Assembly (NCBI GenBank): GCA_903839035.1
Contig: CAIMAQ010000083.1
Location: forward strand, 1-36,494
DNA length: 36,494 nt
Direction of reading: 5' to 3'
From: an uncultured Opitutia bacterium
GTDB taxonomy: Bacteria; Verrucomicrobiota; Verrucomicrobiia; Opitutales; Opitutaceae
Below, piece by piece: positions 1,716-4,273 of the stretch (its first letter is position 1; each line of letters starts with the position of its first letter). Both the position numbers and the translations under genes were made by a program. The notes beneath the pieces were generated by a model that ran no database searches, was not told the DNA's origin, and saw only the letters and a list, made by a program, of their open reading frames with translations.

Positions 1716-1870
1716 AAACACAAGAGCCGCCCCTTGCAGGGGCGGCTCTTTGACCTAACACCAAACAAACCGTAAGAACTACAAACAAGCACCGTCTTAC
1801 CAGGACGATGTTGACTACACCGGGATAGATGCGCCCGGACGCATAACGTTCAAAAGCCGCCAAAAATCTT
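1716..1870 (-). ncRNA. Tandem sRNA-like unit, copy A
   Basis: This is one of two similar non-coding units (the other starts at 1904). On the minus strand it contains TCTATCCCGGTGTAGT, then TTGTTTGTAGTTCTTACGG, TTGGTGTTAGGTCA and a GC-rich 11-bp hairpin (1722-1750) followed by TTGTGTTT. The hairpin plus T-rich tail looks like an intrinsic terminator, so a small RNA read leftwards is plausible. Hairpin changes between the copies keep most of the pairing, and copy A has about 24 extra bases near 1788-1811. No long open frame is shared by both copies. No Rfam family is recognised; function is unknown. Confidence 0.5.
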
Positions 1871-1903
1871 TTGCATATTTTCTGCCCGGATCGCCAAACC
1901 CGG

Positions 1904-2040
1904 AAACACAAGAGCCGCCCCCTTGCGGGAGCGGCTCGAGTGACCTAACACCAAGCAAACCGTAAGAACTACAAACAATATCTGACTACACTGGGATAGA
2001 CGGGCCTCACCGCGAAATGCTCAAAAAAAGTCCGGTTTTT
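1904..2040 (-). ncRNA. Tandem sRNA-like unit, copy B
   Basis: This is the second copy of the unit at 1716. It shares AAACACAAGAGCCGCC, GACCTAACACCAA, CAAACCGTAAGAACTACAAA and TGGGATAGA (plus-strand reading) with copy A. Its hairpin (about 1911-1936) differs in sequence but keeps a long GC stem, and on the minus strand it is followed by TTGTGTTT. A promoter-like pair of hexamers lies upstream at 2052-2080. A transcript starting near 2045 would read the unit and end at its hairpin. The direction is inferred from the promoter and the T-rich tail. Confidence 0.5.
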
Positions 2041-3055: not shown

Positions 3056-4273
3056 TTACGGCTGGCCGGTGGCCGCGGACCGTTCCGCCTGCACCTTCTC
3101 GGTCGCCACCACGACGGCGGGAGTCTGGTCCGGCACCGGCGTGCTCTTGAGCGGGTACCCAAAGCGCTGGCCCTCGTAATTGCGGAACACCACCTCGTCG
3201 TCGGTGATGCTTTCAACGTAGTCCGGATTCACCGGCACTTTGCCGCCGCCGCCGGGGGCATCGATGACGTACTGCGGCACCGCATAGCCGGTCGTGTGGC
3301 CGCGCAGCGCCCGGATGATCTCGATACCCTTGCGGACATCCACCTTGAAGTGCGCGCCCCCCGTGATGAGGTCCATCTGGTAGAGGTAATACGGCCGCAC
3401 GCGCATCCGCAGCAGGCGGTGGACGAGGGCCTTCATCACGTCGGCGTCGTCATTCACGCCCTTGAGCAGCACGCTCTGGTTGCCGAGCGGCACGCCGGCG
3501 AACGACAGCCGCTCGCACGCGGCCTTCAGCTCCGCGGTGCACTCCTTCGGGTGGTTCACGTGGATGCTCATCCAGACCGGCCCGTACTTTTTGAAAATTT
3601 CGCAGAGCTCCGGCGTGATGCGCTGCGGCAGGAACACCGGGATGCGCGAGCCGATACGGATGAACTCCACGTGCTTGATCGCGCGCAGCCGGCTGATGAG
3701 GTGCTCCAGCTTCTTGTCCGAGAGCAGCAGCGGGTCCCCGCCCGAGAGCAGCACGTCGCGCACCTCGGGATGGCCCTCGATATAACGGAGCGCCTGCTCG
3801 TATTCCGGGTGAAAATTGTAGTCCTGCGCGTTCGAGACGAGGCGGCTCCGCGTGCAGTAGCGGCAATACGCCGCGCACCGGTCCGTCACCAGGAACAGCA
3901 CGCGGTCCGGATAGCGGTGCACCAGCCCGGGCACCGGCGAATGCTCGTCCTCGCCCAGCGAATCGAGCTGCTCCTCGGCCGCGAGCTGCGTCTCCCCCGA
4001 CCGCGGGATGACCTGCTTGCGGAGCGGGCAGTCCGGGTCGTTGCGGTCGATCAGGTTGAAAAAATATGGCGTGATCGCCAGCGAGAGCTTCTTGTCGGCG
4101 AAGTAGCACCCGGCCTTCTCGTCCGGCGTCAACGTCATGAACTGCTCGAGCTGGGCGACGCTGGTGATCCGGTTCTTCAGCTGCCACGTCCAGTCCTGCC
4201 AGTCGCTTTCGGGTACGTGTTGCCAAAGCCCCTGCCCTTCGAACCAGGTGGAGCGGTCTTCAGTGTAGGGCAT
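3056..4273 (-). CDS. kamA: Lysine 2,3-aminomutase family radical SAM/PLP enzyme
   Basis: This 405-residue protein belongs to the KamA family, which interconverts L-lysine and beta-lysine with a [4Fe-4S] cluster, S-adenosylmethionine and PLP. The radical SAM motif is C133-x3-C137-x2-C140 in TDRCAAYCRYCTRSR. The PLP-lysine region DAPGGGGKVP and the motif YQMDLITGGAHF are both present. The aspartates in these two motifs match the lysine-binding aspartates of true lysine aminomutases, which argues against a glutamate aminomutase. The length is usual for the family. The start at 4273 gives MPYTEDRSTW, a normal N-terminus. No beta-lysine acetyltransferase (ablB) is adjacent, so use of beta-lysine as an osmolyte is not shown. 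It is divergent from carA with 120 bases between starts. Confidence 0.9.
   Translation of the reverse strand: MPYTEDRSTWFEGQGLWQHVPESDWQDWTWQLKNRITSVAQLEQFMTLTPDEKAGCYFADKKLSLAITPYFFNLIDRNDPDCPLRKQVIPRSGETQLAAEEQLDSLGEDEHSPVPGLVHRYPDRVLFLVTDRCAAYCRYCTRSRLVSNAQDYNFHPEYEQALRYIEGHPEVRDVLLSGGDPLLLSDKKLEHLISRLRAIKHVEFIRIGSRIPVFLPQRITPELCEIFKKYGPVWMSIHVNHPKECTAELKAACERLSFAGVPLGNQSVLLKGVNDDADVMKALVHRLLRMRVRPYYLYQMDLITGGAHFKVDVRKGIEIIRALRGHTTGYAVPQYVIDAPGGGGKVPVNPDYVESITDDEVVFRNYEGQRFGYPLKSTPVPDQTPAVVVATEKVQAERSAATGQP

Follow-up and report, generated by a model that had tools for sequence, protein, structure and literature searches.

A tandem pair of candidate small RNA genes in an Opitutaceae genome and the conserved family of putative regulatory RNAs that it represents

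We find that the tandem repeats at positions 1716-2040 of the window (the whole 36,494-nucleotide stretch of DNA that was analysed, from an uncultured member of the Opitutaceae) almost certainly represent a real, conserved family of small RNAs, as judged from comparison of related sequences. Family-wide, the conserved unit is a predicted assembly of promoter motif, hairpin, near-invariant unpaired G/U-rich stretch and terminator, and it often occupies one and the same site, on the downstream side of a kamA-like gene. Each unit is most likely an sRNA gene with its own promoter and terminator, and we lean towards an overall explanation, mechanism included, in which the pair comprises two sibling genes for trans-acting, base-pairing sRNAs. 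The family is apparently undescribed; no account of it was found among the open-licence papers listed, judged on titles and abstract openings. An earlier sequence-only reading of this DNA recognised no Rfam family, and indeed none in Rfam 15 reaches threshold within the pair. At gathering score the only match in the whole window is a TPP riboswitch, outside the pair, and a search down to an E-value of 5 within the pair returned four weak matches, all on the opposite strand.

The tandem pair and its conserved unit

A repeat search of the window recovered the two copies at 1716 and 1904, with common blocks, that the sequence-only reading had described: an 18 nt block identical in both (1716-1733 and 1904-1921), a 38 nt block at 97% identity (1751-1788 and 1941-1978) and a 44 nt block at 75% identity (1812-1855 and 1983-2026). 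The linker is identical between the copies, as had been claimed, and, read on the minus strand, both copies close with a GC hairpin, of 13 and 11 pairs, and a T-rich tail behind it. The pair is found at one place in its own genome.

All features of the pair lie on the minus strand. The upstream unit (1902-1990, approximately 88 nt) is matched by our covariance model, R1, with 89.9 bits (E 4.8e-16). It is preceded by a promoter-like motif at 1997-2026 (TTTTGAGCATTT-N12-CGTCTA, 0 mismatches, conserved in homologous units), and contains a conserved G/U-rich stretch at 1941-1978, delimited by the repeat and the unit alignment, and a putative intrinsic terminator at 1904-1937 (stem 1912-1937, tail TTGTGTTT), recognised by hairpin and tail. 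The downstream unit (1714-1819, approximately 105 nt) has the complete form, and scores 113 bits (E 5.7e-21) against R1, being itself among the 35 units from which that model was built. Its promoter-like motif lies at 1826-1855 (TTTTGAACGTTA-N12-CATCTA, 1 mismatch), and is followed by hairpin 1 at 1790-1810 (from folding and covariation), by the G/U-rich stretch at 1751-1788, again delimited by repeat and alignment, which is the proposed pairing region, and by a terminator at 1714-1750 (stem 1722-1750), for which hairpin, tail and covariation all speak. Several parts of the earlier reading need amendment: its hairpin-and-tail element stands, but the unit is larger than claimed, the promoter-like motifs having been missed; the copies are tandem siblings, but unequal ones, hairpin 1 being absent from 1902-1990 and present in 1714-1819; and the RNA is structured, but its most constant part is the unpaired stretch, which went unnoticed.

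The wider anatomy emerges from an alignment of 44 units taken from the loci of our DNA searches, with duplicate loci (L017, L019, L027 and L035) left out beforehand. From 5' to 3', these units consist of a T-rich run with TTTTGA(A/G)C(G/A)TTT, 12 nt of freer sequence, and C(G/A)TCTA, mostly followed by TC; then, after a few nucleotides, hairpin 1, which is variable in sequence, the near-invariant stretch UGUUUGUAGUUCUUACGGUUUGCUUGGUGUUAGGUCA, a GC terminator and a U-rich tail. The G/U-rich stretch extends over approximately 36 nt and is nearly invariant. Hairpin 1 has been lost from the upstream unit in all nine pairs of the window's genus, where the distance from C(G/A)TCTA to GGTGTTAGG is 43-44 nt, as compared with 56-67 nt in the remaining units, with the exception of two degenerate ones.

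Folding of single sequences gives a modest gain over shuffles (z of -2.84 and -2.26 for the two copies), and the case therefore rests on comparison rather than on folding. Homologues with compensatory changes, set beforehand as a test of the structured-RNA claim, were found. In an alignment of 35 units made from sequence only, both sides changed in 16 of 23 pairs, with 74 both-side cells versus 28.6 in shuffles (0 of 500 reaching the observed value); one of the five measures was weak, the number of further pair types being reached by 31 of 500 shuffles. When 91 matches were aligned by fitting to the model, a procedure that favours the structure, both-side changes extend to 23 of 23 pairs and 376 cells versus 95.6, and no measure was reached by any of 500 shuffles. 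Covariation is seen in hairpin 1 and terminator alike, and the lower stem of the latter is CAC/GUG or CAU/AUG, its two sides changing together. RNAalifold favours another pairing of the hairpin-1 5' arm, one without any both-side change. The covariance model was built from 35 units with hairpin 1, excluding the promoter; five odd units of 40 (L012, L034, L053, L058 and one of L043) and all units lacking hairpin 1 were left out.

Distribution and promoter motif

Searches at the DNA level (E<=1e-4, 57 genomes) detected the family in 28 of 37 genomes of the same taxonomic family, including that of the window, and in 0 of 20 from other families. The window's genus is represented by 12 genomes, 9 of which show the pair on one contig (L001 and L009-L016). 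The covariance model, although blind to the promoter, matched 105 of 150 Opitutaceae genomes, in 33 of 49 genera, and it is these covarying homologues that bear out the earlier proposal of a structured sRNA present as a tandem pair. In a class-wide sample of 286 genomes, matches occurred in 22, all within the same family, and none was found outside it. A scan of GTDB species for a 19-nt core yielded at least 119 stretches in at least 80 loci. The loci listed are filed under Opitutaceae, Opitutus, Lacunisphaera, Rariglobus, Ereboglobus and Synoicihabitans, or under broader Opitutae, Opitutia, Opitutales and Verrucomicrobia bins, together with one bin of Candidatus Zixiibacteriota, whose core-bearing contig (L193) is probably a misplaced Opitutaceae contig. 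Loci carry between 1 and 4 copies.

The motif in front of each copy has the consensus TTTTGA(A/G)C(G/A)TTT-N12-C(G/A)TCTA. In the window's own genome, it occurs at up to 2 mismatches at the two positions given above and nowhere else, as against 1 match for a control. Among the named loci listed, 75 of 87 distinct units carry it with at most 4 mismatches in 18 positions (0 of 87 for a reversed control); as the promoter was excluded from the covariance model and is nonetheless present in its units, we count this in favour of the promoter being real. When the motif alone was searched for in 61 genomes of the family, at most 1 mismatch being allowed, 45 matches were obtained in 34 genomes, with 2 control matches. 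Among them are matches in genomes without a clear hit in the DNA search (G012, G016, G023 and G029) and in others absent from that search (G080, G083, G086 and G087), where the motif is followed by a diverged RNA. In G029, four tandem diverged units, approximately 180 nt apart, adjoin an rsmE-like gene (L077:1501-2193, plus strand).

Regions downstream of motif matches were judged by eye first and then counted by a fixed rule. Under this rule, a terminator-like hairpin lies within 175 nt after the motif in 30 of 35 matches in the family versus 13 of 417 random windows, and in 13 of 25 order-wide matches, two of which (L261 and L262) belong to the window's own family, versus 6 of 331 random windows. 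The rule misses some units that look real by eye (L053 and L248-L250), and by eye no such unit is present at L050, L065, L071, L078, L243, L244, L251, L252, L259 or L264. Some units of families f11, f14, f20 and f21 appear, again by eye, to carry (G)UUUGUAGUUUG or GUUUGUUGUUUGG before the terminator. Two further observations concern the motif in the wider order. In the small genomes of f79 (L253-L258), it precedes a shorter RNA of approximately 65 nt, with a different common stretch like ATGTATTCCTTTTATAACCTT and a terminator, as seen by eye; and at L244:1501-1700 (plus strand), it stands with 1 mismatch before a gene with a secreted or outer-membrane-like start, which is possibly a protein-coding member of the same regulon.

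The motif is probably an ECF-type promoter. GAAC-N16-CGTCTA resembles the sigma-E promoters of Streptomyces coelicolor, modelled there with spacers of 16 or 17 bp (PMC6767563), and the general form of GAAC, 16-17 nt and CGTC, as taken from the promoters printed in that paper, is present in the motif. A sigma-70 promoter was considered and rejected: the -10 region CGTCTATC is by eye a poor fit to TATAAT, and the motif is absent upstream of tmRNA genes of the same family: of 24 such loci (L277-L300), 20 could be read, and these show 6 to 10 mismatches. By eye, approximately 9 of these 20 readable regions show a box like GTTCTTTGA(C/T)TGG upstream of the tmRNA gene. The genome of the window encodes 12 proteins with sigma region 2; none of their genes has an upstream match of the autoregulatory kind with fewer than 2 mismatches to a shortened motif, and matches with 2 mismatches, found upstream of 9 of the 12, are chance-like.

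Proposed mechanism and candidate targets

Several features sought in a trans-acting sRNA are represented: a promoter motif near the 5' end, recognised from sequence only, an intrinsic terminator, a conserved unpaired stretch and compensated hairpins. Under the mechanism that we propose, transcription of the units would depend on an alternative (ECF-type) sigma factor that responds to some signal from the envelope or from nutrients, and the resulting RNA would expose its G/U-rich stretch between two hairpins. This stretch could then bind A/C-rich sites at and near the start codons of several mRNAs; the likeliest partners would be mRNAs of TonB-dependent receptors. Pairing would block translation initiation without Hfq. 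Hfq was found in 0 of 19 genomes of the order, by a search that was positive in 5 of 14 control genomes. An RRM-domain protein may perhaps serve as partner or antagonist; an RRM_1 protein is present in 13 of 15 genomes, and none was found in the window's own assembly. Duplication would yield sibling copies, of which the one lacking hairpin 1 presumably has another stability or other targets.

The RNA family may turn down outer-membrane nutrient receptors, a lead that comes from one genome, G014. Of 31 receptor matches in this genome 30 loci were used, and 11 of these 30 TonB-dependent receptor genes contain, within -50 to +36, an exact complement of the stretch that is 8 nt or longer. Dinucleotide-shuffled stretches gave a mean of 2.85, with 0 of 1000 reaching 11, the reversed stretch gave 4 of 30, and shuffled start regions of all 30 receptors a mean of 1.41 and a maximum of 7 (0 of 300); such complements occur in 1.9% of 821 other genes of G014. 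This exact-match test was devised after the start regions of G014 had been viewed, and both the receptor starts, picked by signal-peptide likeness, and the gene starts, called by a simple script, include some that are wrong. The first five receptors gave a mean of -18.1 versus -14.4 (0 of 60 permuted stretches), and among the 25 outside these five, 9 have at least 8 nt (shuffle mean 2.41, reached in 1 of 1000), the stacking score being reached in 1 of 200. The complements fall at different parts of the stretch, namely ACCTAACACC, CCTAACACC, AACACCAAG, CACCAAGCA, AGCAAACC, ACTACAAAC and others.

Complementarity is not in excess when all gene starts called in 1.2 Mb of G014 are considered (30 versus 33 for control 8-mers); 177 starts score -16 or better, and for 15 shuffles the mean is 229 and the range 135-306. 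Outside G014, only 1 of 32 receptor starts has at least 8 nt, in a set where the receptor of this locus was the best query for 25 of 31 and where some starts are clearly mis-chosen, so that the signal is not repeated. The seven remaining receptors of this set (L157, L172, L401, L408, L413, L415 and one of G015) gave 0 of 7, an outcome that the G014 rate would yield with a chance of approximately 4%. Because receptors outside G014 do not repeat the signal, receptor repression is a one-genome lead and not a family-wide result, and that receptor mRNAs are the main targets seems to us plausible, if somewhat short of an even chance.

Alternative readings and known systems

The genes around the pair raise the question of a role in cis. 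On the minus strand, a KamA-like radical SAM gene (3056-4273; LAM_C and Radical_SAM domains) lies upstream of the RNA, while the TPP riboswitch (1483-1595; 66.1 bits, gathering 54.3) and the receptor gene that it precedes (2-1417; Plug domain, cut by the window end) lie beyond it; a gene with a SIMPL domain (PF04402) occupies 2157-2900 on the plus strand. As a TPP riboswitch precedes its gene, the window receptor is probably a receptor for a thiamin compound; this combination recurs close to the sRNA at several loci, including some beyond the window's genus. One could read the RNA pair as a cis-acting leader or attenuator of the receptor gene, working with the riboswitch. In favour of such a reading, the pair lies upstream of riboswitch and receptor on one strand in the window; a window-type receptor follows the RNA, again on its strand, in 11 of 28 DNA-search loci, all in the window's genus, and in 13 of the 80 named loci listed (with at least 1800 nt downstream in 57 of the 80), and also in L095, of another genus; and a TPP riboswitch was found in 6 of 8 receptor-downstream loci checked. 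We nevertheless regard a leader function as very unlikely. Each unit is ended by its own terminator, the kamA-like gene upstream on the same strand is the more constant neighbour (25 of 28 DNA-search loci in the family, 49 of the 80 named loci listed), extra and relocated copies have different neighbours (by eye, for example, rsmE-like or valS-like genes), and the window receptor matches the G/U-rich stretch over no more than 5 nt.

Three further readings dispense with pairing to mRNAs. That the unpaired stretch binds a protein, as a sponge or decoy for, e.g., an RRM-domain protein, is in our view unlikely, yet it deserves more weight than the rest: the stretch is repetitive, with recurring GUUUG elements (GUUUGUAGUU and GGUUUGCUUGG), GUUUGUUGUUUGG occurs in some units of other families of the order, copies have multiplied, up to the tandem four of G029, and RRM_1 proteins are as widespread as stated above. 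However, a long near-invariant stretch better suits pairing with many partners than a short protein motif, and the complementarity at receptor starts in G014 also points away from a sponge. That the conserved stretch encodes a short peptide (FVVLTVCLVLG), for instance a small hydrophobic toxin, is suggested by a frame that stays open across it in many units with a hydrophobic reading, but is highly improbable: the frame is preceded variously by TTG, GTG, ATG, CTG, AAG and TCG, with no conserved start codon, single-base indels break it while the surrounding letters are kept (in a single unit of L018, a single unit of L044 and the viral L438), departures at codon positions 1, 2 and 3 number 6, 12 and 14 over 35 units, with no third-position pattern, and diverged relatives lack it. 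On these same grounds of indels, starts and codon positions, a type I toxin or small ORF was rejected as a class. Least credible of all, and close to negligible, is that the copies are repeated terminators or other repeats that do not function as RNAs in their own right; the GC hairpins and their T tails do stand out more than anything else in the pair, and terminators do recur, but here the terminator stems change by compensation while a near-invariant unpaired stretch is kept, as is a promoter motif at a constant distance.

Considered as a base-pairing sRNA, the Opitutaceae RNA, which matches no family of Rfam 15, invites comparison with several well-known systems. MicA and RybB of Enterobacteria are sigma-E-dependent sRNAs with an ECF-type promoter, an unpaired seed and a terminator, which lower outer-membrane proteins and depend on Hfq. 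The Opitutaceae RNA is likewise short, with an ECF-type promoter form, an unpaired stretch and a terminator, and differs in occurring in hosts where Hfq was not found (0 of 19, as above). GcvB possesses a linear G/U-rich region that can base-pair with C/A-rich sites in numerous mRNAs, a likeness that does not extend to size, promoter or hosts. AbcR1/2, PrrF1/2 and NgncR_162/163 are sibling or tandem sRNAs whose similar copies may act together, whereas the two copies described here differ by one whole hairpin.

The nearest working parallel is FopS, although no test makes the Opitutaceae RNA a member. According to PMC11697453, FopS and GibS of Bacteroides are sRNA paralogues in which a conserved unpaired seed adjoins an intrinsic terminator; FopS represses SusC-like transporters next to the start codon, and is countered by the RRM-1 protein RbpB. 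The hosts lack classical RNA chaperones and possess an RRM-1 protein, and a phage carries a copy. The likeness comprises paralogous copies, an unpaired stretch, here a putative seed, by the terminator, hosts with RRM-1 proteins in which Hfq was not found, and a possible phage copy. The differences are two hairpins rather than one, 1-4 copies per locus rather than 14 paralogues, and an ECF-like promoter form in another phylum rather than sigma-ABfr promoters with motif PM2. FopS was deposited in Rfam according to the same source (PMC11697453), and the Opitutaceae RNA matches no family of the Rfam 15 copy searched here, which may or may not include FopS.

More speculatively, and with rather less confidence than we place in receptors as the main targets, one might envisage an order-wide circuit built on a class of ECF-type promoters that drives chiefly sRNAs, one or a few per genome, whose G/U-rich seed sets TonB-dependent receptor levels without Hfq; such a circuit would parallel FopS in Bacteroidota and the sigma-E sRNAs of Enterobacteria but have a separate origin, and a promoterless copy of its RNA would lie among the structural genes of at least one phage. 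With the RNA in most sampled Opitutaceae genomes, behind a promoter form that chiefly precedes RNAs of this kind, the family gives direct access to post-transcriptional control in Verrucomicrobiota in which Hfq was not detected, and lets one ask whether sRNAs that silence receptors arose independently in several phyla.

A search for receptors in viral contigs found no relative. On viral contig IMGVR_UViG_3300005529_000089 (L438:3975-4086, minus strand), we observe a promoterless copy of the conserved stretch, with one base missing, plus a GC hairpin without a T tail, which the covariance model matches with 45.2 bits (E 2.4e-8). It sits in an intergenic gap, after the gene that follows a major head protein (PHROG 1328), and may be a copy of the host RNA, or a mimic of it, carried by a phage.
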